Positions 7,048-29,637 are shown, numbered from the stretch's first letter. The stretch is DNA of 39,484 nucleotides from Clostridia bacterium (GCA_029060065.1 JAIDUT010000014.1:1-39484), one strand, 5' to 3'. Program-made: numbers and translations. Notes: a model not told the origin generated them from the sequence alone.

Positions 7048-8676
7048 TTACTTAGCTATACTTTGTCTTATCGCGTCGTTTATTCTCTCGCGCATTTGCA
7101 ACTGCCATTCGTCGCTGTGCGGATATTCGGAGAAAGTAATAGGCGTATCGATTCCCTGCTCAAGAAGTTCTATCGTCTTTTCTCTGCCGATTAAACTTTC
7201 TAAAAGTTGCAACGCCATCATATCTTGGAATGCGTCGTAAAATACTTTTAGGCGCAAAGACAAAAGAGGCTTACCGTCCTGTCCGGGATAAACAACGTAA
7301 GAATCGCCAGACGGGAATTCCTTGCCTGCGTCGGTTTCCGTAAACGGGTCTACTCTCCTCTTGGAAAGTCTGGTGTACCAAAAATTATATCCCCATTGCA
7401 AAAAGCCTTTTATATCAAATTTATACATTTGACAGCCAAGTACTCTGTTGCGTTGAGATGGCATTGAGAAAAATCTATTGGACACTTTAACGGTCTGACC
7501 GCAACTATAGTACGTCCAAGGCTCTTTTACCTTGCCGAGAAATTCGTGTATGTGCGTAATACCGGTTATAGGATGCTCTAAAATGCCTTGCTCAAAGAAT
7601 TTGATATTGCTTAGCGCATCCATAATTTTGAACTCGCCGAAATTCTCTTTGACAATGGCGCTAGTCTTACGGTAGTTACGCAATACCATTGGATAAGGCT
7701 CGTCGGACACGTGGAAGAATACCTTGTCGGCAATGCCTTTTTGCCTTAAATACTCCTTAAGTTTTGGAGCAAGAGCAGATAAGAAAGTCTTATATTTCCT
7801 GCCGGTTGCGGACGTATGCCAACCGAAAATTTTCTTTTCCTTGCCCTTTACAGTGGCGATTATCTTGGGACATCTCCATGCGCCCCATTGAGTAAAGAAA
7901 TGCGCCATTTCAAAATACTCCACGCCTACTCTGTGACACATATCAATCCACTTGTCAAGATTGGAAAAATCAAAAGAATACTCTTTGTCCTTTACGCTCA
8001 CGCCTATCAACTGAACGGTAGGTCGCTCTCCGCCTATTCTGGTGTCAAGCGGTGGAGTAAATATCGGCGTAAGCACGGCGTTCATTCCGTAATCATGCGC
8101 AGTCGTAAGATAATTCTCCACTATCTCCCAATACTTATCGGAAAATACGGGCGCGTTGTAGTACGTCGATAGACAATCGGTATGAAACCAATTTGTATAC
8201 TTTAGCGTCTGCTTTGGCAAATCGCAATCAATGACGTCAAAGGTCAACTCGACTTTTTCGTCAACTCCATCGCCTTTGAATGATACCTCAACCTTTTGCT
8301 CTCCGCTAGGCAACTCTCCCTTTGGCTCGGTTGAAACCCAAAGACTGCTCCACGCATTCGCCTTTAGACTTATCTCGCCCTCAAGCGGTCTAAGCAGTTC
8401 GGGAAACATACCCGGCTCTTTTCTCAACGTATAATCATCCTGATTCTTGCCAAGTGGTAAGCCTGCGTAAATCTCTTCGACGACGTACGCCTTGAGCATA
8501 TCGCCCATTGCGGAATTTATCTCAACCGACAACTTGCAATCAACGTCGCTCATCAACGCAATTTGCATACTCGACTTTTCGTTGCGGAAAATACTAACTC
8601 TGTCAAAGGACTTTGCTTTCGGCTCTTCGTCTGAAAATACTTTGACAAGACTGCTTAACGGTTTAACTTTTAACAT
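7048..8676 (-). CDS. DUF4091 domain (GH123-like) putative glycoside hydrolase
   Basis: 542 aa; FFHVSDEPYP, YYSCGQTVKVSNRFF and FLQWGYNFWYTR segments match DUF4091-type proteins; GGGGGAGAA RBS. Confidence 0.75.
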   Translation of the reverse strand: MLKVKPLSSLVKVFSDEEPKAKSFDRVSIFRNEKSSMQIALMSDVDCKLSVEINSAMGDMLKAYVVEEIYAGLPLGKNQDDYTLRKEPGMFPELLRPLEGEISLKANAWSSLWVSTEPKGELPSGEQKVEVSFKGDGVDEKVELTFDVIDCDLPKQTLKYTNWFHTDCLSTYYNAPVFSDKYWEIVENYLTTAHDYGMNAVLTPIFTPPLDTRIGGERPTVQLIGVSVKDKEYSFDFSNLDKWIDMCHRVGVEYFEMAHFFTQWGAWRCPKIIATVKGKEKKIFGWHTSATGRKYKTFLSALAPKLKEYLRQKGIADKVFFHVSDEPYPMVLRNYRKTSAIVKENFGEFKIMDALSNIKFFEQGILEHPITGITHIHEFLGKVKEPWTYYSCGQTVKVSNRFFSMPSQRNRVLGCQMYKFDIKGFLQWGYNFWYTRLSKRRVDPFTETDAGKEFPSGDSYVVYPGQDGKPLLSLRLKVFYDAFQDMMALQLLESLIGREKTIELLEQGIDTPITFSEYPHSDEWQLQMRERINDAIRQSIAK

Positions 8677-8748
8677 AATTCTCCCCCTATTTAATCGGTT
8701 AACACCCGAACGAATAAATTATATCATACAATTAAATATAAATCAATA

Positions 8749-11700
8749 TTAATCTTCAATTTCTCTCAATATTGCGGTATCTTTTATTGCATCGTCATTT
8801 GCAAGCACGATTGCTTTGCTTATAATATCTGCCGTCATTGGGTCTTCGTCTACAAAATCGAGAAGAATCGGCTTATCTACGCTATACACGGTATCAAGCG
8901 CAAGATTGCCCTTGCCTTCCTTGAACACAAGTCCCGTGCGGATATTGACGACGTAAGTCCCCAACTTGCCTTGAACCTTGATATTGTCCTTCAAGAACGA
9001 TACGTTGTTAAGTCCAAGTATAGCTACGATAGATTTGAGTACTTCGTGGCGCATCTCCACCGTAGACATAGCCAAATCAAAGTCGTAAATAACTTTGGAA
9101 CTTATAGATACCATCAAATCCACGTCGCGCAGAGTTTCTGAGAAAGTTATGTCGTCCACGTCCTTTATCGGAATAATTTCACCGCTCTTGCGCTTCAAGA
9201 AAAATATTCCGTGGAGTTCTCTATTGACGTTGGTATAGTCTGCTGTATAGAACAAATCGAACTCCCTAAAGATTGCCGAAACAATGTCGCTACGATAATA
9301 TATCTTTCTAAGTCCTATCTCTTCGCACACTCCCCAGCCCTTGCCTTTAAGCGCTGATACGCATTTCTTAAGGTCTACTTCAAATCCCCTAAAACGCAAC
9401 ACTTCGTCTTGTTGAAGTTCCAATTCCGTCTTGGTATAAATTTCCCTCATGACTTGCTTGAAAGGCTGACGTATATTATGCCTTGCCACATACTCTATTG
9501 CGTCTTGCAAAAGTCCCAACTTCTTTAATTCTACAGGGTGAGCAACGTAGATGTCGTTCGCCTCGATAAGTGTGCCGTCAATACTCTTAAGTTCTTGGTC
9601 GAATACGCATAGTTTACCGTCCGCAACAAATATCAATTTGTCAAGCGCGGTAGCCATAATACGTTCTTTGCGCATTCGCTTCAACTGCTCAAGCGTAAAC
9701 GCAACGCGGTTATTCATAGTATTTTCCAAGCTTGCGATAACACGGCGGAACTTTTGATTAAGCCTCTTTATCTCTTCGCGCATGGTTACGACAGCTTGGG
9801 CTTTGCCGTACTTGCTAGGTATTGAAGTAAGCGTTTTGCCGTTCTTTTGGACGCTATACGATACTTTGAATTTACTCTCGTCAATATAAGGCGTGATAGC
9901 GATATCGTCCAGAGTAAACGTCTTGAAAATATCGCTTGGGTTTTCCGCTTCCATTTCAAAAATAAATATATCGGAGCTTGCGTACCCTGCGACGCGCGCA
10001 AGATTTTCCATGGCAATATCCACTGTTCTGCGCTCGCTCAACTGACGTTGCGCTCCGAACTGTTTTCCGCTTCTTATAAACTCCGCAAGTACATTATATC
10101 TCGTAAACAAATCTTCTCTGTTCTCTATAGGAATAAGGCTGTAGATAAGACAGTAGTCTTTATTGCGAGTACCGCTCATTTTCTCCAAACACTCGGCTTT
10201 ATCGATGCGCCCGTTTAGCGCGTCAAAAAACCTCTGAGCGCGCTTATGCAAACCGCCTATAGTGACGTACTTAGCATTGTCGTACACGCGCGAAAGCATA
10301 TCTTTAGGCACTTTATCCACCATTTCTTGATACCACTTACAGTCGAAAGCTCCGTCCTTAAAATCGGGATAGCTTATATCGGAAAACTCCTTTATCTGCT
10401 CAATGCGTTTTTCCTGTCTGCTTTCTTCGAGATTTTCATTGAGGTGCGCGATAAACCAAAATACTGCAATCTTGAGGTTGGGTACGCCTAAATACTTCGC
10501 CGTATAGTCCACAAATTCCGGATTGAAGAGCGTAGCTTTAATAAGTTCGTCGTCGGTAATCTTATACTCTTTGACAAGTTGAGTAAACTTGTCGTAGTCA
10601 TCGCCCTCTGCTTTCACGCAATACTTGAGAACATAAGAAAATACGTTGTCTTTCTTAGTTCCGAACGGCGAGCGTACCCAAGTAATGCCTCTAAGCGCAA
10701 CTATGGCTTTGCAGAACTTCTCCACTCCGTAGAATCTCTCGGCGCGCGCCAAAAGATGGCTATACTGCGTTTCCAGACTTCCGCGACTAAACTCCGCTTC
10801 CAATGCGCTGTCAACGAAGTCAAGAAGCAAAGTCTTGAACTTTTGGTACTTGTAGTCGGGACGCATTATGCACTCGGTAGAAGACGGCATAACTAAAGAG
10901 CCGATATATTGGCTTTTGAGAATAAAGTAGCGCGCGAGTTCTTGCGAAATCAGATTGTACTCGTAAGCCTTTGCCGTCAAATTTATATCGGGAGCATAAT
11001 CGGGTACTGCGTCTATCATCACGCACGCAAATCGCAAAGCCTTGTTAATAGTTTCGATATCGTCGGTTTGCTTTATTAATAGTCTGCTGAATTGAGCGGG
11101 ATACCAATACGACTTTTTGTATTTGTCAAGTGCGCCCTTGTTTGCAAAGGCGGACATAAGCGCAAGAAATTGTTGCTCGCCCAGCAAATCGCTGACAATC
11201 GAGTTCTTGAAATTATAAATTATGTTGTACTCGTTGGTGCAATACCAATACCCCTTTATAAGCGATAAAACGTAGTCGAAATTCTTTTCAGCCTCTTTTA
11301 ACGACTTGCCGTCGTAAACACCGCAATACAAATTCTTGGCGTCTTTTTCTATGCAGTGTATAATCACAACTACTCCTGCAATCTCGTCTTTAGTAAGATT
11401 ACTCTCTATCAGCGCTTTTATCTCAAGTCCCAAGGGGTATGCTTCCCAGTCCCTAGAGCCTACTTCCGTGTCCTTTAGCCTTTCAAAGTTAGAGCCGAAC
11501 TGCTTGAGTCCCTCGCTCAAACCCGACGCGTATTCATAGTCTTTATTTGCTTGAATAAAATCGCCTAAGGCTTCAAAGAACGCTTTCAATCGCTTGTACT
11601 CAATGATTTGCAATGGCTTGACGTCAATCTTTTGATTGGCTATACTTTTGATTTCGCCGTCGGGTCTTTCGACAATAAATACGCTCTCGTTTCCGAAGTA

Positions 11701-14133: not shown

Positions 14134-14374
14134 AAATTTATACTCCTTATGTAATTTAATTTTTTTTCATTGTGTTTTTATGAGTTTCAATGGATATACT
14201 CGGTATAAGGAATAATTACTTTCCTATTGTTCCGAACTATAACAATTTACTCTTGAATACTATATCGATATTATATTCATTTTATTAATGTATTTATTAT
14301 AGCATACAAAAGATAAGTAAATCGATATCTATATCATACGAATTTTGTCGAAAAAGAAGAAAAAAGGAAGAAAA

Positions 14375-14854
14375 ATGTCGAAATCACCTGAAAATAGTCA
14401 ATATAAAACATCTACAGCCTTTTCAAAACGTATTAAACATCTTATTTATGAAAACGAATGTGATTCAAATACGGATTTAGCAAAACTCATTGGCGTAGGA
14501 CCTATTATAATATCTAATGCTGTAAATTATGGAATTATACCAAGCACAAGAACTCTTATTAAGATAGCCAACAAATTTGATTTGTCGTTAAAGTATCTTT
14601 TAGGAATTGATAACATAAATAATTTTATTCCATCTGCAAATCCATCTAATTTTCCAACTCGCATTGCTCAACTTACTGAAGAAAATAATTTGAATTATGG
14701 CAAAGTTGCATCACAAACGAGTTTTACTAGAATGTATATTTATCAATGGAATAAAAAATGTACTATACCGTCTTTAGACTATCTATTTGAAATTGCAGAT
14801 TATTTTAAGGTTTCGCCCGATTATCTACTAGGCAGAACTGATTATAGAAATTAA
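14375..14854 (+). CDS. Double-HTH XRE-family regulator, copy 1
   Basis: 159 aa from ATG 14375 (ORF track starts at TTG 14345); N-terminal DLAKLIGVGPIIISNAV and C-terminal RMYIYQWNKKCTIPSLDYLFEIADYFKVSPDYLLGRTD are XRE-like. Confidence 0.8.
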   Translation: MSKSPENSQYKTSTAFSKRIKHLIYENECDSNTDLAKLIGVGPIIISNAVNYGIIPSTRTLIKIANKFDLSLKYLLGIDNINNFIPSANPSNFPTRIAQLTEENNLNYGKVASQTSFTRMYIYQWNKKCTIPSLDYLFEIADYFKVSPDYLLGRTDYRN

Positions 14855-14857
14855 GCG

Positions 14858-14958
14858 GTTGAGATTTCTCCATTCCGCTTCGCTACAGTCGAAATGACAT
14901 AGGGGGTGTTATTATCACTATTAAATTTGTCATTTCGAGCGCAGTCGAGAAATCTCTA
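14858..14958. repeat. Palindromic interspersed repeat (two inverted arms)
   Basis: GGTTGAGATTTCTCC...GTCGAAATGACA facing TTTGTCATTTCGAGCGCAGTCGAGAAATCTC. Confidence 0.75.
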
Positions 14959-14983
14959 CCGATTTTTTATACAAGGAGGAAAA

Positions 14984-15463
14984 ATGTCGAAATCACCTGA
15001 AAATAGCCAATATAGAATGTCAGAAAATTTCTCTAAACGAATTAAACACCTAATTTATGACAATGAATGTCAGTCAAATGTAGAATTTGCAAAACTTTTA
15101 GGTGTCAGCGAGCCAATAATTTCAAAGGCTGTAACATTCGGTATATATCCTAGTCTAAGAACTTTAATAAAAATTGCCGATAAATTAGATATTTCGATAA
15201 AGTACCTTATGGGTATTGAGGATAATAATGAATTTATAATGTCGACAAATCCTACAACCTTTCATACCCGACTTGCCGAATTAACAACAGAACATAAGAC
15301 AAAGTTTGCCCGTGTTGCTTCTAAAACCAGTTTTCAAAGAACTTATATTTATCAATGGAATAAAATAGGTACTCTGCCCTCTATAGATTATTTATTTGAA
15401 ATTGCAGATTATTTTAAGGTTTCGCCTGATTATCTACTGGGCAGAACTGATTATAGAAATTAA
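14984..15463 (+). CDS. Double-HTH XRE-family regulator, copy 2
   Basis: 159 aa from ATG 14984 with ACAAGGAGGAAAA RBS; same length as copy 1, with identical first 10 and last 24 residues. Confidence 0.8.
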   Translation: MSKSPENSQYRMSENFSKRIKHLIYDNECQSNVEFAKLLGVSEPIISKAVTFGIYPSLRTLIKIADKLDISIKYLMGIEDNNEFIMSTNPTTFHTRLAELTTEHKTKFARVASKTSFQRTYIYQWNKIGTLPSIDYLFEIADYFKVSPDYLLGRTDYRN

Positions 15464-17593: not shown

Positions 17594-17763
17594 TGTACAC
17601 AAACGGGTAGCACATTGTACCGCACTCTTGAAAAGGGAATCCGGAGTTGAAAGTCGGCTGGCGTGCCTTACCGCTTAAACGGTTCTTAAGGATTACAAAA
17701 GACTTGCACAGGATACCCACCTGCTACAAAGCGGGTTCAGATTGGCGCTCGTCTGTGTACCAT
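17594..17763 (+). ncRNA. ssrS: Probable 6S RNA
   Basis: ~170 nt; ends pair (TGTACACAAACG with CGTCTGTGTACCA) in a long closing stem; no ORF; internal ACCCACCTGC..GCGGGTTCAGATTGGCG resembles the 6S 3' arm; own promoter and terminator. Confidence 0.62.
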
Positions 17764-17924: not shown

Positions 17925-18167
17925 TTATTTACTTTCTTCCGTCTCTTGGGCTTCTTCAGTCGAAGTATCCTCTGTCGGCGCGTCAACGCTTCCCGTCGGC
18001 GGGTCGCTCTTCTTTACTATTCCCGCAACTGCCAGTATACCCAAAAATCCCATTACCGTTTCTTGAATATACGGCAAGTCGAATTTGAGGGATAGGCTCT
18101 GCAGTACCACCATAACGGCGCTGACGATAGATACCCAAAATTCATAGCTTTTAAGTTTTTCTTTCAT
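17925..18167 (-). CDS. Phage holin-like protein (phi LC3-like small membrane protein)
   Basis: 80 aa; MKEKLKSYEFWVSIVSAVMVVLQSL..VMGFLGILAVAGIVKKSDPPT. Confidence 0.7.
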   Translation of the reverse strand: MKEKLKSYEFWVSIVSAVMVVLQSLSLKFDLPYIQETVMGFLGILAVAGIVKKSDPPTGSVDAPTEDTSTEEAQETEESK

Positions 18168-18496
18168 GCGCTCTCCTTTACGGCTTCGGGAGTTGTTTCG
18201 ACAGTTAATTCGGCTTTTTTGCCGACGGCTTTCTTTTTCTCTGACTTACCGTCTTTGACGATACTCTCCATACACTCCTTTACCGCATTACTCATCTGCT
18301 CTATATCCTCGTCGATTTCCTTTATCTCCTCGTCAATATCTTTGACATATTCGAGGTCTTTTGCGAGAGAAGATATCGTATTTTGATATTTCGTCTCTCG
18401 AGCTCTGCTGTCCTTTAGTTCATATATCAACAATACGCAAAATAGCAACGCCCATAAGCCGTCGCCTATAGCAAGTTCTAAAATTCTATCCCACAT
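18164..18496 (-). CDS. BhlA/UviB-like holin-type protein
   Basis: 110 aa; single N-terminal TM (GDGLWALLFCVLLIYELKDSRARE) then a charged coil, as in BhlA/UviB proteins. Confidence 0.65.
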   Translation of the reverse strand: MWDRILELAIGDGLWALLFCVLLIYELKDSRARETKYQNTISSLAKDLEYVKDIDEEIKEIDEDIEQMSNAVKECMESIVKDGKSEKKKAVGKKAELTVETTPEAVKESA

Positions 18497-18497
18497 A

Positions 18498-19499
18498 TCA
18501 ACCTTTTGACCTGGAAATATCGGTTACCAACTTGCCGTAGTACGTACCGAGATAATCCTCGAGTTTTTTATTTTCTTGCAACATTTTCAATGCTACGTCT
18601 TGCGGAAGCGAAGTGTAGTACTCATAAGCTAAGTCGTAGCGCTGTTTGTAATTTTCCTTTTTCTCCCCCGCATACCCGTATTTGTTTTCAAGATTATTTA
18701 TCTCGAGCTGGTCTTTGATTCTTTGCGCAAGTTGCGCCTCGATAGCCTTGGCTCTGTCTTGAATATATTTGACTTCCTTTTCTTTTAGCGTATTGTTGTA
18801 TTTGTCTATACTTTCGATTTCTTTGGCGCGTTTGTCAATCAAGCGCTGGATTTCCGTATCGAGTTTGCTCGCATAGGATATGTCAAGCTGTTGTAGCGCG
18901 GTATTTGCTTCGCCTTGCAGTTTTGCAATCTCGCCGTCGAGTTTGCTCAAATCTATATTGCGCTTATTCGCCAACTCGCCCGTTTCCCAAGCTCTGGCTT
19001 GCTCGTTGGCATCCGTCTGTCCCTTCTTGATAGAAGAGCGGTACAGCCCCTTTTTGACGAGTTCTTGCATGAGCGCTTTTTGGAATTCGTCGTAATCCTT
19101 ATCGACTTGCGCTTGCTTTTGGTCGTAATCGGCGTTGGTTTCGTCTTTTTTATTCTCAACTACTGCCGTCTTGACGTCATAGCTGTCGTTGACCTTTTGC
19201 TTTTCGTCATTTAGCAAGCCGTCGTACTTTTCTTTGGTATTTTGTCTTATTGTATCTTCGTCGTCACCCTCATATTTGAGGTACTCGAAAGTCTGTTCTT
19301 CAGGCAACAAATCCGACAGATCTTCATACCCATTACCGGGGTCATACGCCCCGCTGTTTTTATATTCTTCGTCAAGTTGTCCCAGCTTGTCCAGCAATTC
19401 GTTTTCGCCGTCAACATACGGTGAAGTATCCACGTCGTCCGCTACTTTTTTGCCTGTAAAAAACGCCTTGACCTTATTTGTAAAATCACTCCAAGTCAT
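18498..19499 (-). CDS. Coiled-coil putative virion protein
   Basis: 333 aa, extended charged heptad-like region; in the structural operon. Confidence 0.55.
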   Translation of the reverse strand: MTWSDFTNKVKAFFTGKKVADDVDTSPYVDGENELLDKLGQLDEEYKNSGAYDPGNGYEDLSDLLPEEQTFEYLKYEGDDEDTIRQNTKEKYDGLLNDEKQKVNDSYDVKTAVVENKKDETNADYDQKQAQVDKDYDEFQKALMQELVKKGLYRSSIKKGQTDANEQARAWETGELANKRNIDLSKLDGEIAKLQGEANTALQQLDISYASKLDTEIQRLIDKRAKEIESIDKYNNTLKEKEVKYIQDRAKAIEAQLAQRIKDQLEINNLENKYGYAGEKKENYKQRYDLAYEYYTSLPQDVALKMLQENKKLEDYLGTYYGKLVTDISRSKG

Positions 19500-19520
19500 A
19501 ATTTCTCCTTGTATATATAT

Positions 19521-19895
19521 CTAGTTTTCAAGTATAGTCGCTCCCGATATACTTCCCTTTATGCGCGCTCTTCCCGACGATAAATTCCGTGCGATTATCT
19601 CCACTGTCCGCCAGCCTTTCGATAGCGATATCGGAGCTATTGTTATAGTTCCCTCTCGCTCGTCCACAACTTCTCCGTCTACTCTTATTTGACAACTCGG
19701 TCGTTCGCCGTCCGCGGGGAAAGCCAATATTTCGAGTTCGGCATTCCCACCCTGAGAATATAGCCTTATTGACAGTTGGCTTTCGCCGTCAACTGCCGTC
19801 AAAACAAAATAGCAATTCTCCGACGAAGCCGAGATATGTCTGTCTAAATTCTCGCTCACTTCTTCAATCATAACTTCCATTCTCTTAATATTCAT
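19521..19895 (-). CDS. Hypothetical beta-rich virion-associated protein
   Basis: 124 aa; syntenic in the phage operon; no family recognised. Confidence 0.5.
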   Translation of the reverse strand: MNIKRMEVMIEEVSENLDRHISASSENCYFVLTAVDGESQLSIRLYSQGGNAELEILAFPADGERPSCQIRVDGEVVDEREGTITIAPISLSKGWRTVEIIARNLSSGRARIKGSISGATILEN

Positions 19896-19925
19896 ATTTT
19901 CTCCTTCAAGAGTTCTTTAAGAGCT

Positions 19926-21353
19926 CTATTTCAAAAAGTCGATTTCCAGTATCGGCGGACGTATATTTTCGTCCACGTTGTCCGAGCGAATATAAAATAC
20001 GAACTTATCGGACTTGACGTATATGCTTTGGCGATTCTCCAACGGCGAAAGAACATATTCTCTTCTCTCACCGTTGGCAAGTATTCCGAGCACGTATTGA
20101 CTATCCGCGCTGTACTCTACTCCGCGAACTACTTTCAGCCTGGCGGGTCTGTCGAAATCTATCTCGGGGCTTTGCCAATACTTTTGATACGGCTCTCCCA
20201 AATAAAGTCCGCTTTCGTCGAGTTGAACGGGTGAAGAACAATCCTTGGACAATCCTATTATCTTGCCCTCGCCGTAAGCTCCGACAGTCTTGATATCAAA
20301 GAGAGATATACCTCTCATAAAGTCCACCGATTTGTCAGTCAAGTCAAAGAGCATGACAACATTGTTTTCCTGCTCTTTAGAAAAAATTCCATAATCGCAA
20401 TCTATGACGTTGGTAAACGACAAGATGTATTTGTGATGAGCATAGCACGCCGAAACGTCCTTGAATCCGCCTTGCAACAAATCGTTGGTCTTTACTGAAT
20501 ATCTATTGACGTCGTATCCGTCGAAGAGATATATTCCGTCCTCGCTTGCAAAAGCCACGTACTCACCGCATTGCGTAATCGAGTTCGCAAATATTCTTCC
20601 GCTAGAGGCGTACACTTTCTTCATAGTGAATTGGGTCTGGTCAGCGTAAGCAGTCAATCTGTAAATACCGAATTCGCAAAAGACGTAGAGATAATTGTCA
20701 AAACTCTTAATAGCGTTGACGTTGCCGAGCGAGCCGTCGAAGTCTATGTAACCCCCCTCGTCCAGCGACACGTTCCAGTTGAAAGGATCGAAGTCGTCGC
20801 TAAACCAAAGGCTGTTGCGAACGTCCTCCACGACGGCGTAAATTCTCTCGTAGTGCGCGCACATATCAAGCACTTTCACGCCGTCTTTTATTTCGACAAG
20901 TTGCTCGCCAGACAAAGCCTTAAGTCCGCTCTCTCCCGACAGCAACAGCAAATCGGCGTCGCCGTAAAGATAATTGACGCCCACGTCAAAGATACCCTCG
21001 CCGTCGATATGCACCCATTCCCTATCGCCTGCCGTCAAGTATTCCAAGCCCTTTTGATGCGAGATTATCAGCCTACTTTTAAGTCTGCCGTCCCTTTCTG
21101 TCTTTGTGATAAAGAGTTTGACTTCGCCCAAGCCGTCGGGAATAGGCGGAATCACTTCTCCGTCGAACTCCAAAGCGCTTATGCCGTAAGGCGTTACCAA
21201 TCGCGAATTTTTGAATTTGTAATTATAGACGCAATCAACGTAGTCGCAGGGCAAATTGCGAGATAATTTGGTTTCGTCATACCCCTTAAAGTTGGAAAGT
21301 ACAACTCTTTTCCGCTCGGGTTTTGCGAGCGCGTAATCTTTGTCGTAAAACAT
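19926..21353 (-). CDS. Beta-propeller-like tail hub / DNA stabilisation protein (P22 gp10-like role)
   Basis: 475 aa with repeated YLYV/YVAFASEDGIYLFDG-type blades; lies directly after the connector gene. Confidence 0.55.
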   Translation of the reverse strand: MFYDKDYALAKPERKRVVLSNFKGYDETKLSRNLPCDYVDCVYNYKFKNSRLVTPYGISALEFDGEVIPPIPDGLGEVKLFITKTERDGRLKSRLIISHQKGLEYLTAGDREWVHIDGEGIFDVGVNYLYGDADLLLLSGESGLKALSGEQLVEIKDGVKVLDMCAHYERIYAVVEDVRNSLWFSDDFDPFNWNVSLDEGGYIDFDGSLGNVNAIKSFDNYLYVFCEFGIYRLTAYADQTQFTMKKVYASSGRIFANSITQCGEYVAFASEDGIYLFDGYDVNRYSVKTNDLLQGGFKDVSACYAHHKYILSFTNVIDCDYGIFSKEQENNVVMLFDLTDKSVDFMRGISLFDIKTVGAYGEGKIIGLSKDCSSPVQLDESGLYLGEPYQKYWQSPEIDFDRPARLKVVRGVEYSADSQYVLGILANGERREYVLSPLENRQSIYVKSDKFVFYIRSDNVDENIRPPILEIDFLK

Positions 21354-21354
21354 A

Positions 21355-21906
21355 TCAATACCACCTTCTGGGTTTGATTTTTATCTCCCCTTTCTTTCTC
21401 ACGGCAGTGCGCATATCCTGCTTGAATCTGTCGGAGTACGTAACCGATTGCTCGTACATACCCGAAATGAGGCTGTACTCTGCGCATATACCGAGCGCAA
21501 GCGTCTTGGCGGAAACGAGCGGAGGCAGAGGACACTCTTCTTCGATATCAATATCAAGCGGTATATAACTGTATACTATCCTTGCTCTTTTTACGCCGTC
21601 GTTGACTACTCTGCAATAAGTCGGCGTATGATAAAAGTCAGACGTCAATCCGCTGTCTAAATCCTCGACTTTGCGCATCTCCAGCAACTTGTGTGTCAGT
21701 CCTTCGTAATTTATCTTGCCGTCTTTAACTTCGACTTCCTCTTCTCCAATCAATGGGAGATACTCGCCTGTTATTTCTTTTATTACGAGATTGGCGCAAT
21801 TAACCAAGAGTTTGAGTTTGGGGTGTTGAGCCGTCTGCGTATTTATGTTGGCGTCCTCGTCGCCGAGATACGTCAAACAAATTTGTATGGCTTCTTTAAG
21901 TTGCAT
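21355..21906 (-). CDS. Head-tail connector/adaptor-like protein
   Basis: 183 aa; size and position downstream of MCP; LGICAEYSLISGMYEQSVTYSDRFKQDM helix typical of gp6/gp4-like adaptors. Confidence 0.55.
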   Translation of the reverse strand: MQLKEAIQICLTYLGDEDANINTQTAQHPKLKLLVNCANLVIKEITGEYLPLIGEEEVEVKDGKINYEGLTHKLLEMRKVEDLDSGLTSDFYHTPTYCRVVNDGVKRARIVYSYIPLDIDIEEECPLPPLVSAKTLALGICAEYSLISGMYEQSVTYSDRFKQDMRTAVRKKGEIKIKPRRWY

Positions 21907-21951
21907 ATATCTCCTTATTTGAACCTATGCTAAAGTTACTAATCATAGATT

Positions 21952-22266
21952 CTAAATTCTTAAATTTCCTATAGCATTGTTAATTATCTCGTCTTGACGC
22001 TGTTTTTCAAGTCGAGCGTTGTGAGCGTCGATTTCGGCAAGAATAGCGTCCTTGTTTTTGACGCGACTTTGCATTGCGAAATCAAGCGCTCTTTTGTCAA
22101 GAGATGAATATGGAAAGACCGCTTGAAACGTAGGCGTCTTTGACGAGTTGTGCAACTCATATCTGCAAGTTCCCCTATTGAAATAGATTTTGTAATTTTC
22201 GTCTATGCTCTTTATCCTTGAAGATATATCAAAAAGGTCGTCCTTAATCTCAATCAGTCTTTCCAT
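21952..22266 (-). CDS. Hypothetical phage structural-operon protein
   Basis: 104 aa, between MCP and connector, with RBS. Confidence 0.5.
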   Translation of the reverse strand: MERLIEIKDDLFDISSRIKSIDENYKIYFNRGTCRYELHNSSKTPTFQAVFPYSSLDKRALDFAMQSRVKNKDAILAEIDAHNARLEKQRQDEIINNAIGNLRI

Positions 22267-22318
22267 ACTTTTACCTCTTACCTCTTCACTCTTACCTCTT
22301 AACTCTTAACTCTTACTC
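22266..22318. repeat. Degenerate 7-8-bp tandem repeat (minus: TAAGAGTTAAGAGTTAAGAGGTAAGAG...)
   Basis: Fills the MCP-to-104-aa intergenic gap; similar GTGAAGAGTGAAAAGTGAAGAGGTAA at 15559-15590. Confidence 0.7.
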
Positions 22319-23476
22319 CACAGTAATACCCGAGAGCTTAGCCTGTCCGATAGGTTTGTCGCAAATCATGTCGGCATACTTGACAAGCGTTGCGCCGTAG
22401 GTTGCGCTACCTGCTTTTTGCTTGATTACTTTGCCGTTGTCGCCCTCAAGCCATCTCCAATCGCAAAGTTGGTGCAACTTAAAGTCACCGCTGTTGAGCA
22501 AGTACATAGTTCCGCTCTCTATGAATCTGTCCGCGGTGAGCGGTATCCCGTTGTAAGACAAAGCCTTAAAACCGCCGTCAAGATTCATATAGTCTACGTT
22601 GGTTCTCGTCAATGCGAGATAGTCAAGATAAGCTCTTCTTACGTCGTAAGAACATACGATAAAATCGATTTGCGAGCCTGCAACTTCGTCAATGTAGTCG
22701 ATTGCGCTCTGAATCTTTGCAGTGTTGATACTGCCTACGTTTTCGTATTGCTTAGGCTTGAGCCAGCTTCTGCCCTCTCTTGACAAGCCGTACAAATCTC
22801 TGTCCGAAAAGATTGCGCCAAGACCTGTCAACTCGTTTTCTCTAGAGCCTTGAACGGTGACAATATCGCCGTCTGCTACTGTAGTAGATACGTTTGCAGA
22901 CACTGTTATAGAATTGTTTACTCTATCTACGCTGACGATTCTCACGCCCTTAAGGTCTGGGTATACCGTACCCGATTGAGAATAGACGTCAACTACCATA
23001 CCCTCCATAACGTTGCGTACGCTATCGAGAACAATTACGTTACCGTTATTTGCCTTGCAGGTTGCAAGACTACCGCTACCGTCGCCGTACAACATTCTGC
23101 CGAGATTGAATTTAGATGCTTTGAGCAAACCTTCCATCTCCGCGTTGAGAAGATTTACGAACGCTCCTGTATTTGACTGAGATGCTCTGATAGCTTTGTC
23201 GGAAAGCTCTATCGTGCCGTAAAGGTTCTTGAGTTCCAACTTGAATCTGTCGTAGTTGTTGGAAGCCGGAGTGGGAAGCTCTCCCGTTTCCGTACCCGCT
23301 CCGATACCGCCGTTGATTCCGTAAGGTACGAGTTTGATTATCTCCTTACCCCATACGTCGCTCGTCGTCTGCTCTATCTTTGCAAGAAGCGGATTAACGC
23401 CCACGTTAAGTTGATCTGCTACCACGTTTAAGTACACGCTTTTAAGCGCTTTTTCTGCTGTTTCTAACGTTACCAT
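22313..23476 (-). CDS. HK97-fold phage major capsid protein
   Basis: Start set to ATG 23476 behind AGGAGG; MVTLETAEKALKSVYLNVVADQLNVGVNPLLAKIE..., Ser/Gly-rich loop, FIVCSYDVRRAYLDYL; follows portal and scaffold. Confidence 0.8.
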   Translation of the reverse strand: MVTLETAEKALKSVYLNVVADQLNVGVNPLLAKIEQTTSDVWGKEIIKLVPYGINGGIGAGTETGELPTPASNNYDRFKLELKNLYGTIELSDKAIRASQSNTGAFVNLLNAEMEGLLKASKFNLGRMLYGDGSGSLATCKANNGNVIVLDSVRNVMEGMVVDVYSQSGTVYPDLKGVRIVSVDRVNNSITVSANVSTTVADGDIVTVQGSRENELTGLGAIFSDRDLYGLSREGRSWLKPKQYENVGSINTAKIQSAIDYIDEVAGSQIDFIVCSYDVRRAYLDYLALTRTNVDYMNLDGGFKALSYNGIPLTADRFIESGTMYLLNSGDFKLHQLCDWRWLEGDNGKVIKQKAGSATYGATLVKYADMICDKPIGQAKLSGITVE

Positions 23477-23483
23477 TATTATG

Positions 23484-24077
23484 TTATATCCTCCTGTTGT
23501 TGAACATAGCCTTGAATACACTGCCCGCCTCGGCTATGCTCGTCGGTCTTGAAGGCGGTGTGAGTGTGATTTGTCCCCTCGAAGAAATCGACTTAGGGGG
23601 AAGATTGCGTTGCAAACTCTCGAGATACTCTTCGATAATTCTGTCTTTTACTTCTTGATTGCCAAAGACGTATTTTTGCAAAAAGTCCTCGTCGCTTGCA
23701 ATTTTTTCGGGAGCTACGTACGCTTTGGCAAGCGCTGTCGCCAATGCTTTTTCCAAGCAATTTTCATCTTGCGATAGCTCCTTGCTATCGGCTATGATTT
23801 CGCCGATTTGCGAAGAAAAGTCCTTGGCTATCGGATAGACTTGCAAAAACTCCTGCACTTTAGTCTTCCAACCGACTTGCTCGAATACGGGGATACTTTC
23901 CTTCTCGGGAGCGTCGTTTATATCCTCCCCTTTTGCCCCGTCGCAAGCGCCATTGTCGGCGGACTTTTCCTCCTTTGGTTCTTCTTCCCCCTGAAGTTCT
24001 TGGGGTATATTCTCAAGCTCTTTAGCGTCTGCTTCCAAGCCGTTGAGATCAGTTTGTCGGTATGATTGCGTTTCCAT
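23484..24077 (-). CDS. Putative scaffolding protein
   Basis: 197 aa, acidic N-terminus, short C-terminal basic tail; between portal and MCP. Confidence 0.6.
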   Translation of the reverse strand: METQSYRQTDLNGLEADAKELENIPQELQGEEEPKEEKSADNGACDGAKGEDINDAPEKESIPVFEQVGWKTKVQEFLQVYPIAKDFSSQIGEIIADSKELSQDENCLEKALATALAKAYVAPEKIASDEDFLQKYVFGNQEVKDRIIEEYLESLQRNLPPKSISSRGQITLTPPSRPTSIAEAGSVFKAMFNNRRI

Positions 24078-25938
24078 TTTGTCCTCCCTCGTCCGGCGAT
24101 TGCGCCATATCGATAGTTTTCATCATCTTGTGCTGTTTGATATGTTCGTCTATTATGCTCGCAAGGTTTTCGTCCTTTTCTTCAAGCAAGCGCTTGAGGT
24201 GTTCGTCGATATGCAAGTCGTGGTCGTCATACTCCGCTACTTGAACGTCCTCTTTGCCAAAGTCAAGGTTTTCTTTCATGGCCTTTTTGCGATGGCTTTC
24301 GTCGATATCTCTGCTTGACTCCCAGTTGCCGAAGCCCAAAATCTCAAGAATCTTGAGTTTATTTCTCGAAGATATTGCTCCGCTTTCGTCGTTGAAAATA
24401 CCCATTTTCACAAGTTCGATGACCATATTTCTCTTGTTTTCCAAAGTATCGGTGAGTTCGTTTTCATTGTCGAATACAAGGTCGTCGCTTTGTAAGTCGC
24501 TCGCCGTGAAATAAGCAAGCTCCACTTCTCCGTTGTCGCCCGAAAATCTCTTCATACGCTTGCTCTGACAAAACTGTTTATACAGTCTTAGCATTTGCTC
24601 GCATATTCTCTTGATACCCATTCTCAAAGACGTCGTAGCTATAGACAATCGCGTGTCGTCCTGCTCGACAAGCAAACCTATTGCCTTACCCGACATTTGA
24701 TTGAATACGTTGGAATACTTACTCAATTCGCTTACGCCGGATATTGTGGTAAACTCCGAAAGTATTCTCTCCTCTTCGTATTGGAAGTCTACCGGAACTC
24801 TTCCGCTCTCCAAGAGCTTTGGTGGCGTAGAGCCTTGACGGTATATCAAAACTTTGCCGGGAGAGAGACCCTCTTCCTCAAGATTGTCCGTATCGACAGA
24901 CCCGTCCTCTATGCTGAGTACGCCCATCGACAGTCTGTTGATAAATTCGTGTTTGCGATTTTTGACTGCGTTGTACGCTCTTTGCAGTGGGATAAGTCTT
25001 TCTATTATGCTACTGCCGTAAAAACATCCTAACTTATCAAGACAGATTATCCTTGTGAATGGATAGCCTCGACTTTCGTTGACGCCGTTGATATATGGCA
25101 AATCGCCGTGGTACAGCAGTTTGTCGCCTGCTACTATACTCAACTCTCCGTTAGGCTTGTCCGCCGTAGGTCGGGAGTACCTCTCTATCACAACGCACAT
25201 ATCGTGCGCCACGCCGTTGAGCGTATTGAAAGAATTGTCGTATACTATACCGCTTTGAGCCGAATCGAGCGAAAATACGTTGACGTCCTCGCCGTTGACT
25301 TCTACGCCCCAAATGTCCTTGATTTCATCTACATGATACGCTTTGGCGTGTATGATACTCATACAGTCGTCAATGTTGGATGTGCCTATATTGTCGGGGA
25401 AAATCTCGTACGGCGGAACAACGGATATATCCACGTCGCCCTCGCGCACCTCGCCCTTCTTGCTTTGTCCGATAACTCTTCCCTTTTCGCCTGCCCATAC
25501 CGTCTTGAAGAAGCAACTGCCCGTAACTTCGCTCCAACTGCTCGCTTCATTGAGCAAGCGCGGTAAGTCGTTTTCTTCGCACAGCGCCTTGACTATTTGC
25601 GTAGATAATTTTGCCGTCTGCACGTCGCTATCGTCGCTACTGAAAGGACGTACGCTGATTCCGCACTTTAGACGGTTGAGTTTGGACAGCCTCGTTTCGA
25701 CAATAGACGCGATATGATTATATACTTCTCTCTCTTGCCAATAGTATTGCTTGCCGTACTGCTCTACGTCGCCCACGGGAGTTATCTCGGCGTATTGATT
25801 ACCGCTGAAAAAATTCATATTAAGACGCCACTGCAACTCAAGCGGTTTGCGCTCCTGTCTGCGTCTTTCAAAATCTTTGCGTACTTCCTTGACTATGTCC
25901 TCGCTGAATTTTCCGTTAAACTTTGTCATTTTCCGCAT
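24049..25938 (-). CDS. Phage portal protein
   Basis: 629 aa; RPLELQWRLNMNFFSGNQY, NHIASIVETRLSKL and LGCFYGSSIIERLIPLQRAYNAVKNRKHEFIN typical of podovirus-like portals. Confidence 0.82.
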   Translation of the reverse strand: MRKMTKFNGKFSEDIVKEVRKDFERRRQERKPLELQWRLNMNFFSGNQYAEITPVGDVEQYGKQYYWQEREVYNHIASIVETRLSKLNRLKCGISVRPFSSDDSDVQTAKLSTQIVKALCEENDLPRLLNEASSWSEVTGSCFFKTVWAGEKGRVIGQSKKGEVREGDVDISVVPPYEIFPDNIGTSNIDDCMSIIHAKAYHVDEIKDIWGVEVNGEDVNVFSLDSAQSGIVYDNSFNTLNGVAHDMCVVIERYSRPTADKPNGELSIVAGDKLLYHGDLPYINGVNESRGYPFTRIICLDKLGCFYGSSIIERLIPLQRAYNAVKNRKHEFINRLSMGVLSIEDGSVDTDNLEEEGLSPGKVLIYRQGSTPPKLLESGRVPVDFQYEEERILSEFTTISGVSELSKYSNVFNQMSGKAIGLLVEQDDTRLSIATTSLRMGIKRICEQMLRLYKQFCQSKRMKRFSGDNGEVELAYFTASDLQSDDLVFDNENELTDTLENKRNMVIELVKMGIFNDESGAISSRNKLKILEILGFGNWESSRDIDESHRKKAMKENLDFGKEDVQVAEYDDHDLHIDEHLKRLLEEKDENLASIIDEHIKQHKMMKTIDMAQSPDEGGQNGNAIIPTN

Positions 25939-26143
25939 TTTCTCCCATCGTAGTTTTTTTCGCCTTTTTGCGTTTGGGCGTAAGCGCCAAAGCTATCTCT
26001 CCGTACAGTTGTCGCATACATTTCTCGCACAGGTTGATGTACTGTCCCGCTCCCACTCCGTCGGGCGCAACGGAAAATCCTGCTAGGTTTCGGCAGTTGC
26101 CTACGTCACACCTGATTTTGTTTGTTTGAATTATTACTTTCAT
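25916..26143 (-). CDS. Small Cys-containing (putative zinc-binding) phage protein
   Basis: 75 aa; CDVGNC...CEKCMRQ; overlaps portal start. Confidence 0.5.
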   Translation of the reverse strand: MKVIIQTNKIRCDVGNCRNLAGFSVAPDGVGAGQYINLCEKCMRQLYGEIALALTPKRKKAKKTTMGENAENDKV

Positions 26144-26411
26144 TACTTTCTCCTTTCGTCAAGTCCTTGAGTTGACCCAACAATTTTGTTTTGAGTTGAA
26201 TAAGTTCTTCATCGCTCATTTTAGCCAAGTCGTTTTGCTGACCTTTGAGTTCGAGTATCGTCTTAATTGCCGTCATGTCGGGCGGTAGATGCTTGCTACT
26301 GACTTTGCGTTTCAACAACTCGTTTTCTCCCGAATACTCCTCTACTATCTCCTGCACGTCGTAACCCACGGCTTTGCGTAAAATGGCAAGTTCTATGTCT
26401 TCGTTTTCCAT
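26106..26411 (-). CDS. Small phage protein
   Basis: 101 aa; between TerL and portal, overlaps next ORF. Confidence 0.5.
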   Translation of the reverse strand: MENEDIELAILRKAVGYDVQEIVEEYSGENELLKRKVSSKHLPPDMTAIKTILELKGQQNDLAKMSDEELIQLKTKLLGQLKDLTKGESNESNNSNKQNQV

Positions 26412-26626
26412 ATATCTCCGTCGTACGCTGTCAATTTATTAAATTGCAAGCGTGTGTTTTATTATTACTATCGCGTTAAATACGATAGCTAGGTGAATAC
26501 GGATAAGTTTGCGTAAGCAATTTGCGTAATAAGAAGGATACGCATTGCAGGCGTACTGGATGTACGTCAAAATGCGTAGACGAACTTAGTGCGTAAATGG
26601 ATAGCAAAATTGTCGTATGAACTTAG

Positions 26627-27103
26627 CTACCGTCTTTTATTCATCAGGCGTCTTTTGTCTTTTTGAATTTCGCTTACTTTGGTTTGTGGCAGTTTAGGCG
26701 GTTGAGGTTTAGATACGATATAATACCGTAATGCGTCCAGCGCATGGTCGTCCTTTTTAATAGGTCTATCGCCCTTGCCCCACCAATAGCTTTTGAGTTC
26801 TCTGATAAGATTTACGCAAGTTGAAAATATCTTTATTCTCCCCTCGGCAAAATAGCTTTTGACGCTTGCGATACCGCTAAAGAGTTGTTTGTCGACGTTG
26901 GTATTGACGAGTATACCTCTGTCGTAAAAGAGTTCGCTCACGCTCTTGCGAGAAGCAAGCGTATGCTGATCTGCTGCGCTGTCAATCAAGGCAGTAAGTC
27001 TGCCCTTGCAATCGGTATGCCAGTTCAACTTTTTAGCAAGCTCCTTTATATGCTCGGCGTGATAATCAATATCTTTTCCAGCCATATACCACTCTCCCAC
27101 CAC
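26627..27103 (-). pseudogene. Terminase large subunit, C-terminal nuclease part (frame-shifted)
   Basis: VVGEWYMAGKDIDYHAEHIKEL..LIDSAADQHTLASRKS..DHALDALRYYI; continues the upstream ORF in the -1 frame. Confidence 0.75.
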
Positions 27104-28110
27104 GTAGACTTGCCGTCATAGTCGGTCGCAAAAAACAAGCACGCCAAAGGGTTATTTAATCCGGGGTCGATAGATATCTCGTCTTGCCACTCAAAAGGCA
27201 CGTCAAATGGCGAGATTACGTCGCGTTCAGGTAAAAACTCTTTGTATACTATTCCCTCCGCTTCGCAAAATCTGCCGTATCTACGGGAAGCCAAAGTCTG
27301 CTCGTCCATATTCGCCGATAGACTTACCACTTCCTTTTCGTCAAGAAAAGGATTGTCCGCCCACTCTATGTGTTCGTGCCATACCTCGTCGTCGCCTGCC
27401 GAGTTGAGATATATCTCGTCGTATACCCAAGTTAAGCCCTTAAGCGGAGTCATAGTTCCCCATATCTCGCCCACTCTGTCGATTACGCGCATCCTACACT
27501 CGTCATAGACGTCCTTGGGCGGTTCTTCGTCAAACCATACGAAGTCAAGCGACGCGCCTTGAAATTTTTCTCTGCCTTGGTCGCAACTTTTGAACGCGAC
27601 TTTAGAAGTACCTCCAAACACGTTTTTAATAAGCACGTAGTCAATGATACCGTATTCGGCAGAACCTTTTTTGCCTGAAAGCATAACGACGTCCTCTATC
27701 CAATCGGGATTGAGATAGGACAAAAATTTGCTTTGCGCAACCTCTCTTTGAACCTCATACGACAGCGAAACTATCCACCCCGACACGTTTTTGCGATTGC
27801 GCCTATATGGATGAATACCTCTCGCCCACCACACCGCCTCGACTGCTCCGCACTCCGTCTTGCCCGAGCGGTTACCTCCAAATACCCAACGGTTACGCTT
27901 AAGGCATTTGTGGAAGTCAAGTTGCTTTTGATGCACCTTATCGCCCGTATTGTAACTCGCCAATCTATCGCCCGCTTTGCGCCTTAATTGTTCTTTCTCT
28001 ATTGATAACAACGTAAAAAGTATTTCTTTTTCTCTCATAATTCGCCAAATTTTACTGATATTTTTTTTATTTATTACCGCAATAGTATTGTAAAAATTTT
28101 CCAAATGCAA
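27046..28110 (-). CDS. terL: Terminase large subunit, ATPase part (frame-disrupted)
   Basis: Walker A VFGGNRSGKTECGAVE, Walker B LDFVWFDEEPP, SIDPGLNNPLACLFFATDYDGK nuclease start. Confidence 0.85.
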   Translation of the reverse strand: MHLENFYNTIAVINKKNISKIWRIMREKEILFTLLSIEKEQLRRKAGDRLASYNTGDKVHQKQLDFHKCLKRNRWVFGGNRSGKTECGAVEAVWWARGIHPYRRNRKNVSGWIVSLSYEVQREVAQSKFLSYLNPDWIEDVVMLSGKKGSAEYGIIDYVLIKNVFGGTSKVAFKSCDQGREKFQGASLDFVWFDEEPPKDVYDECRMRVIDRVGEIWGTMTPLKGLTWVYDEIYLNSAGDDEVWHEHIEWADNPFLDEKEVVSLSANMDEQTLASRRYGRFCEAEGIVYKEFLPERDVISPFDVPFEWQDEISIDPGLNNPLACLFFATDYDGKSTWWESGIWLEKILIITPSI

Positions 28111-28161
28111 TATAATTAGATTATTACAACGGTCTAACGAATTACTACGATTGAGGTATAT

Positions 28162-28974
28162 ATGAAAAAAGTAATAATAATTGCAATGCTATTGTCGCTA
28201 CTATGCGTATGTTCACTGTCCGCAGGCGTTTGCTTTGCCGACGAGGCTTCGACTTCAACGACGCAAAGATATTACTTTGAAGCGTCGGTTACAACTCCCA
28301 ATCTTTATTTAAGAGCGTCTGCAGACGGAGAAAGCAGAATTTTACTCTATATCCCCCACTCCTACGCTTTTGAAAAAATCGAAGAAGCAAACGGAGCTTT
28401 TGTCAAAGTAAAATATAACGAAATCGAAGGATATATCCAAACCAACGCTTTCACTAACAACTGTAAGCAGGTTACGTCAAAATGGGGCAACAATGCCTAC
28501 GAATATGAGTTCCCTAATATTACGGTTACCGCAAGTCAAATTACGCTCTATAGTAAAAATGATATGACTGCCATTGGCTCAGAAGAGCAAAACAGATTTA
28601 GAATCGACAAAGTATACGGATATTATTATAAAGATAACGAGTATTACTTTCTAGCCGATACATCAAGCATATCAATGGGTTCGTATAAATCAAACGAACT
28701 TGGATATATTAAAGCCACTGATACTTCGCTTGCAAATTTCAATGAGAATTCTATCCCCGAAAGCGCAGGTTATAAAGCCCAAACAACAGCGGATAATAAT
28801 CCCCCTACAAGCGGTAATATAAATTCCGGCAACCCCAACGGTGGCAATAACGGAACTACCCCAAAAGATACTTCCAACTCTTTCGAGAGATATATCCTTA
28901 TTGCCGTAATTGCCGTCTTGTGCGTAGTGATTATTATTTTGATTTTCGCGCCTACAAGAAAAAGACAACACTAA
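28162..28974 (+). CDS. Secreted/membrane-anchored bacterial SH3-like domain protein
   Basis: Signal peptide; SH3_3-like VTTPNLYLRASADGESRIL..GAFVKVKYNEIEGYI; C-terminal TM YILIAVIAVLCVVIIILIF. Confidence 0.7.
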   Translation: MKKVIIIAMLLSLLCVCSLSAGVCFADEASTSTTQRYYFEASVTTPNLYLRASADGESRILLYIPHSYAFEKIEEANGAFVKVKYNEIEGYIQTNAFTNNCKQVTSKWGNNAYEYEFPNITVTASQITLYSKNDMTAIGSEEQNRFRIDKVYGYYYKDNEYYFLADTSSISMGSYKSNELGYIKATDTSLANFNENSIPESAGYKAQTTADNNPPTSGNINSGNPNGGNNGTTPKDTSNSFERYILIAVIAVLCVVIIILIFAPTRKRQH

Positions 28975-29008
28975 CAGCATACTTTAACGCAACATAAATA
29001 TCCTTAAC

Positions 29009-29045
29009 TAAAAGCAACTTATCTCATCATAAGTTGCTTTTAGTT
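29009..29045. terminator. Bidirectional terminator
   Basis: ACTAAAAGCAACTTATCTCATCATAAGTTGCTTTTAGT. Confidence 0.8.
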
Positions 29046-29055
29046 TTCAATCCGC

Positions 29056-29637
29056 CTATAATATTGTCGCCACTCTTTGCTCTGCTCTTGAAGTTGCGCC
29101 TAGCGCGACGGCTATGCCCTTTGCCAAATTTTCTTTATATTTATTTTGTTTTTGCAGACTTCTTCGCTCTTCTCGCTCCTGTTCTTCCCTTTCGGCGCAA
29201 TATCTAAAGCACTTTACAAATACGGGATCATCCGCATAATATTTGCTAAGCCATTCGTCGTCGTAGCCCTTCATAATACGTAGGCTTGAGAATTGTTTTA
29301 GCGCAAGTTCGTGCCACCTAAACACACTACGCAAGCATATATTCATAAGCGTGGCAATCTGCTCAAAGCTCTTGCGCTTTATGTACCTCATTTCCAATAC
29401 GAGCTTGTGTTTCGGCTTTAACATAGCAAGCGTATTGTCTACAATAACTTTAGCATTTATCAACGCCTCTTTTCTTGCGTTGTTGGCAATCATTTTATTC
29501 ATAAGGTCTAATGCGTTACCTTGATATGAAAAACTGCCCAGCGCCATTTGCATATTACTTCTGTCAATGCACTTTACTACTAACGGTAGCGCATTGTATG
29601 TGGCAAGTAAGCTCTTTGACCACGTTTCTTGATCCAT
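29056..29637 (-). CDS. Sigma-70 region-4-like / phage transcription regulator-like protein
   Basis: LKPKHKLVLEMRYIKRKSFEQIATLMNICLRSVFRWHELALKQF resembles a sigma region 4 / ArpU-like HTH. Confidence 0.55.
   Translation of the reverse strand: MDQETWSKSLLATYNALPLVVKCIDRSNMQMALGSFSYQGNALDLMNKMIANNARKEALINAKVIVDNTLAMLKPKHKLVLEMRYIKRKSFEQIATLMNICLRSVFRWHELALKQFSSLRIMKGYDDEWLSKYYADDPVFVKCFRYCAEREEQEREERRSLQKQNKYKENLAKGIAVALGATSRAEQRVATIL

Follow-up and report, generated by a model that had tools for sequence, protein, structure and literature searches.

To our knowledge, gene clusters for gene transfer agents (GTAs) are known for few lineages, mostly Alphaproteobacteria, and RcGTA among them is siphovirus-like. 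A podovirus-like GTA has been shown in Faecalibacterium and was reported in 2026 as FpGTA I/II (PMC12946183). All known GTAs have a putative small terminase (TerS) without a detectable DNA-binding domain (reviewed in PMC11841831), and work on RcGTA proposes the missing domain as the cause of random packaging (PMC6854486). PBSX of Bacillus subtilis acts like a tailocin and does not inject, and faecal particles showed random packaging of host DNA for Christensenellaceae HGM11616/QANA01, for which no gene cluster was named (PMC12946183). Here we analysed a 39,484-nucleotide stretch from a Clostridia bacterium (GCA_029060065.1, JAIDUT010000014.1:1-39484; hereafter the window), which makes up an entire contig (G000:C17) of a metagenome-assembled genome of 1.57 Mb. 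Located between asnS and a gene for a GH95 glycosidase, a run of virion genes (17925-29637; hereafter the cassette), nearly all on the minus strand, comprises about 15 virus-type genes, one of them on the plus strand. This cassette, known here from its genes alone, is very probably a host-owned, vertically inherited GTA of the podovirus type. No published description of the cluster was found in the literature searched.

FpGTA I/II, which we compared by description only, resemble the cassette in that they belong to gut Clostridia, are compact (approximately 10.5 kb) and podovirus-like, and lack replication genes. TerS without a DNA-binding domain, the large terminase (TerL), portal, scaffold, and capsid protein are common to both, and the further FpGTA genes at a second locus recall a split of the cassette described below. 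However, FpGTA has been described only in Faecalibacterium, whereas the cassette host belongs to another order, and the main cluster of the cassette, unlike that of FpGTA, holds a nozzle, a DUF7934 protein, a holin, BhlA, an SH3 membrane protein, and a sigma-like regulator. The RcGTA family and other alphaproteobacterial GTAs share with the cassette vertical inheritance by the host, purifying selection, a truncated TerS, and ectopic loci, but the cassette differs from RcGTA in its P22-type portal and podovirus nozzle. In these two parts and in TerL, the likeness to P22-type head modules claimed in a preliminary description of the window was confirmed. P22, Sf6, VP1, Pa223, and SU10 have the portal family, relatives of the TerL nuclease, and the nozzle fold in common with the cassette, and the order portal-scaffold-capsid-adaptor-nozzle is that of P22-like podoviruses. 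In contrast to these phages, the cassette has no integrase, repressor, replication, tailspike, or endolysin genes, as judged from profile matches among its genes, and its TerS lacks the DNA-binding domain. It does not form one mobile unit as a P22-like temperate podovirus does, since the corresponding genes are absent from the cassette and its flanks and the gene set is divided in one family. PBSX is similar in being a phage-like element fixed in the chromosome of a Gram-positive host, and it packs host DNA, but the cassette differs in its podovirus-type tail and has no known tailocin-like activity.

The capsid gene was found as a single copy in 40 of 46 genomes of the host family, and the portal gene adds one incomplete genome (G030); the cassette is present in all 41 genomes of five of the six genera, with the same genes in the same order. 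Across the order, 237 of 396 genomes, in 72 of 142 genera and 18 of 33 families (counted from the listing), carry the capsid gene, nearly always once. Outside the order, approximately 12 matches were obtained in the other ~370 genomes of the class-wide sample, most of which were more distant and had different gene neighbourhoods. Gene order and open frames are shared by about 37 loci of the host family and by 20 that belong to other families in the order, and in the latter nearly all genes, the regulator and the SH3 gene on the opposite strand among them, keep their positions. Exceptions to this layout are some loci of family f28 (families, genomes, and loci are designated f, G, and L) and lineages in which some small gene for lysis or the tail is missing. 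Because the same order recurs in dozens of genomes, the gene set lies far above chance expectation. Two unusual loci were also seen: one f28 locus (L182, G133; 8035-10370) has two different capsid genes in tandem in an otherwise normal cassette, and a locus of f107 (L175, G743; 9384-11420) has related capsid and scaffold genes alone amid housekeeping genes, with no portal or terminase nearby.

For 59 genomes, FastTree was used to build a cassette tree from portal, capsid protein, and TerL and a host tree from gyrA, and the two were compared. The two trees have 36 of 56 splits in common, against 0.15 expected with shuffled labels, and no conflicting split had support of at least 0.95 in both. 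Each of the five carrier genera is monophyletic in both trees, and the Mantel correlation was 0.85 overall, 0.90 within the host family, and 0.47 among the other families, in each case above all 999 shuffles. These trees indicate that the cassette is vertically inherited and codiverges with its host. The neighbouring genes, named from their protein sequences, are also conserved in part. Most f1 loci on sufficiently long contigs have the gyrB-gyrA pair next to the cassette or not far from it, and genes for RNase J, an O-methyltransferase, and peptidase U32 follow the cassette in f19 and f28. Because the neighbour in f13 is another gyrase/topoisomerase pair, the gyrase linkage is only partly usable as an order-wide ancestral marker. 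No integrase was present within ~35 kb of the cassette in 11 of 12 genomes checked, and in the sole exception, G232, the match is a 113-aa fragment at a distance of 8 kb.

Purifying selection acts on TerL, portal, and capsid with a strength similar to that on gyrA (median dN/dS 0.057, 0.059, and 0.068, respectively, versus 0.046), so that the dN/dS proposed for capsid and portal in the preliminary description gave no sign of relaxation. The accessory parts showed higher values (0.10-0.28), including 0.27 for the fast-evolving scaffold-like protein and 0.28 for the SH3 protein. ORF lengths were nearly constant over the ~37 loci of the host family, with two private frameshifts, one in TerL of the window and one in the DUF7934 gene of G025. 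From the trees, we infer that the cassette was domesticated before the order diversified.

In six f28 genomes, a trio of regulator, SH3, and TerL genes lies 24-104 kb from the TerS, portal, capsid, and tail genes, separated from them by housekeeping genes, and each part is single-copy and open. In G355, the trio has remained at the RNase J locus, the site of the whole cassette in f19 and G363. Excision or inheritance as one viral unit is therefore not possible for this gene set, and the separated loci presumably still act together. The regulator gene is kept upstream of TerL across the order and travels with it in f28. The SH3 gene sits between the two in nearly every locus and moves with both, and nearly all homologues of its product have a signal-like segment at the N terminus and a hydrophobic one at the C terminus. 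The preliminary description, correct on the ORFs it described, their order, and their strand, had left this plus-strand gene out; its conserved place and joint movement identify it as a cassette member.

Among complete relatives that share the head genes, the nearest is an ordinary prophage in f76 with an integrase, an S24-type (CI) repressor, a replisome organiser, DnaB, a full TerS (Terminase_2), and an amidase. In the portal tree, L303, L308, and other true phages fall outside the host cassettes. Contigs from IMG/VR were considered as free phages bearing the cassette, and this was rejected because most nest among host cassettes; as they also carry the whole cassette, they are probably chromosomal fragments. 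In three diverged IMG/VR lineages (L255 4377-5588 with L335 709-4543, L261 with L336, and L034 with L337), the capsid gene is broken at the same place near its 3' end, close to RPIGQAKL. Methyltransferase, restriction, or SLOG genes of a foreign element follow, and phage replication genes are present in two of the three elements, along with a P27-like TerS-type ORF. At the far end of the element in L255/L335, there are two large serine recombinase-like ORFs and then, ~59 kb downstream, the remaining capsid 3' end and intact tail genes. The capsid gene of the cassette seems to be used by other prophages as an integration site.

In TerL, Walker A (GGNRSGKT), Walker B (DE), and the nuclease acids are conserved across the alignment, and the protein is related to 5oe8 and to P22 4dkw. 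The window has two TerL ORFs (27046-28110 and 26627-27103), matched by Terminase_6N (6e-13) and Terminase_6C (6e-6), whereas TerL of complete relatives is always one open frame of ~475-500 aa. The split is thus either a lesion private to this genome or an error of assembly, and a programmed frameshift is ruled out. TerS of the window and its relatives matched only positions ~191-262 of the 319 positions of the phrog_309 model. By contrast, the homologue in f33, the basal lineage in both trees, is longer and matched positions 105-252. Judging from these alignments, the truncated TerS is a mark of domestication, as in known GTAs. Two further marks are the division of the gene set in f28 and the ordinary prophage character of the nearest complete relative.

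The 475-aa protein following the adaptor candidate was modelled with AlphaFold2 from an alignment with 34 relatives (pLDDT 88). A Foldseek search with this model gave full-length matches to VP1 (8zkk, TM 0.77), Pa223 (9nwi, TM 0.74), Sf6 gp8, and P22 gp10, and a partial match to T7 gp12. By its predicted fold, the protein is therefore a podovirus tail nozzle, which replaces the earlier assignment as a beta-propeller hub. In the host family, the nozzle gene is followed by a small ORF with a beta-rich product, whereas unrelated or larger proteins occupy its place elsewhere: a set of three (~330, 600, and 80 aa) in f18, f29, and a single f32 genome, and one 493-aa protein in f33. Since it is swapped between families, as if the particle tip were diversifying, this ORF likely encodes a tip or receptor-facing part. 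In L126, a 1580-aa protein follows DUF7934. The ejection proteins of P22 hold the place that DUF7934 has here, and the DUF7934 homologue in f33 (L139, 4491-5486; G077) bears an N-terminal LysM domain; another homologue is present in a phage contig. The small tip and ejection-like proteins, which we regard as candidates, sit in the expected places. Near 2.21 Mb, G077 has another relative, which is prophage-like and comes with an integrase.

The preliminary description had left three options for the cassette, namely a decayed prophage, a satellite or packaging island, and a domesticated particle producer, and the last, in the form of a GTA-type producer, is the one that our results support. Decay would explain the frameshifts in TerL of the window and in DUF7934 of G025, but both are private and dozens of genomes have every gene open at low dN/dS. 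Intact ORFs, low dN/dS, and order-wide co-inheritance exclude it for the lineage, and we assign it a negligible probability. A full prophage at this site or many lesions in relatives, either of which had been named as the sign of an ordinary remnant, were looked for, and the cassette did not prove to be one. The absence of mobility genes and of conflict with the host tree, together with the scatter over two loci in one family, likewise disfavours a satellite or packaging island. The structural genes are all of phage origin and true prophage relatives exist in other orders and in f33, as would be expected of a slow-moving prophage or satellite lineage that codiversified with the hosts while continuing to excise and replicate. 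We nevertheless consider such a lineage extremely unlikely, given the missing integrase, repressor, and replication gene, the two distant loci in f28, the 59-genome trees free of conflict, and the conserved neighbours (gyrase in f1, RNase J in f19 and f28).

Two further explanations accept host ownership and differ in function. A conserved antibacterial, PBSX-like particle would pack host DNA and kill relatives without delivering genes. Retention of head, motor, and short tail beside tip proteins that vary as strongly as killing or targeting proteins do would suit it, as would the lack of a recognised receptor-binding protein in the cassette, but the most constrained parts (TerL, portal, and capsid) are those that killing alone would not need, and profile matches revealed no toxin-like ORF in the cassette; we judge this explanation unlikely. 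The presence of BhlA and a holin in the cassette and the constancy of the SH3 membrane protein could instead point to a role other than DNA transfer, for instance in programmed lysis, as an empty shell, or as a device that punctures the wall. This is very improbable in view of the conserved motor and nuclease residues and of selection on TerL almost as strong as on gyrA. Several observations weigh against a GTA itself. Neither an endolysin (BhlA and holin are present; other loci were not searched) nor a clearly recognised receptor-binding protein was found in the cassette by profile matches, and the TerL gene of the window is itself frameshifted, by assembly error or a true recent lesion. Capsid and portal are absent from all five genomes of the sixth genus of the host family (g6); as ~40% of the genomes of the order also lack the cassette, it is dispensable. 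Furthermore, some IMG/VR contigs have a cassette interrupted by a prophage. Taken together, the anatomy, vertical inheritance throughout the order, strong constraint, and scatter over separate loci are better explained by a GTA than by any rival, and we regard this as the best reading. The random packaging reported for Christensenellaceae and the podovirus-like GTA of Faecalibacterium, which has a similar gene set (PMC12946183), lend it independent support.

The features of the cassette are listed below. The capsid start, given as 23521 in the preliminary description, was placed at approximately 23476 by alignment with relatives. The reported lack of integrase, replication, and endolysin genes held for the cassette, and that of a tape-measure gene is trivially true of a podovirus-type tail.

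Features of the cassette in the window (positions counted from the first nucleotide of the window)
Position	Strand	Feature	Evidence
29056..29637	-	Sigma-70 region-4/ArpU-like regulator, probable cassette switch	phrog_36 1e-12, PF08281 6e-7
28162..28974	+	Exported, membrane-anchored SH3-domain protein, cassette member	SH3_3 weak, 8e-4
26627..28038	-	Large terminase TerL (motor and nuclease), split by frame change near 27,100	
26106..26411	-	Small terminase, C-terminal core only, no DNA-binding domain	phrog_309 partial
25916..26143	-	Small Cys-containing ORF between TerS and portal	Place conserved across the order
24049..25938	-	P22/SU10-type portal	PF16510 7e-24, phrog_156 2e-34
23484..24077	-	Scaffold-like protein	Position and weak phrog_12880
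22313..23476	-	Major capsid protein	phrog_14242 4e-58
21952..22266	-	Small ORF beside capsid gene	Place kept in cassettes and related phages
21355..21906	-	Head-tail adaptor (connector) candidate	Conserved position, capsid gene to nozzle
19926..21353	-	Tail nozzle (P22 gp10/T7 gp12/VP1/Pa223 type)	AlphaFold2 and Foldseek
19521..19895	-	Small tail-tip/needle candidate (N-terminal helix, beta C-terminus)	Position directly after nozzle
18498..19499	-	DUF7934 coiled-coil, ejection/cell-wall protein candidate	PF25588 2e-47
18164..18496	-	BhlA/UviB-type membrane protein (lysis)	PF10960 2e-14, phrog_2429 8e-12
17925..18167	-	Holin-like protein (lysis)	phrog_297 5e-10

Beside asnS, the 6S RNA proposed earlier is plausible at 17594-17762 on the plus strand, but its score of 30.2 bits is under the Rfam cut-off of 46.4. 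At 14345-15463, two adjacent, mutually related plus-strand genes, the second with two Cro/CI-type helix-turn-helix stretches, adjoin a low-GC stretch and a tRNA-Thr gene.

If the cassette works as a GTA, its regulator, by analogy with its family, would turn the cluster on in a few cells, and scaffold and capsid protein would assemble a head on the portal, as is known for these families. TerL, with a TerS devoid of the DNA-binding domain, would then pack any chromosomal DNA by the headful mechanism, as proposed from RcGTA. The adaptor, nozzle, tip protein, and DUF7934 may make up a short tail with which the wall of the recipient is opened, the nozzle being assigned from its fold and the other tail parts from their position. 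The producer would be lysed by BhlA and holin, together with an endolysin encoded at another place in the genome, and sibling cells would take up the DNA.

The cassette is possibly the missing cluster behind the random packaging of host DNA in Christensenellaceae, and it could supply the genes missing from the reported packaging events. We see an even chance that a GTA was captured once near the root of the order, became fixed like an organelle, and serves as a main route of within-species gene exchange in many uncultured gut Clostridia, being the cluster behind the host DNA in faecal particles; this broader reading includes the order-specific membrane-anchored SH3 partner and the stand-alone regulator-motor locus of one family. 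DUF7934 (PF25588) gains a functional context. The series of intermediates from phage to f33 with a longer TerS, to the remaining lineages with a truncated TerS, and to f28 with split loci would trace a path from a phage to a host machine. A cluster of this kind in 72 genera of one gut order would make GTAs a common trait of gut Clostridia.

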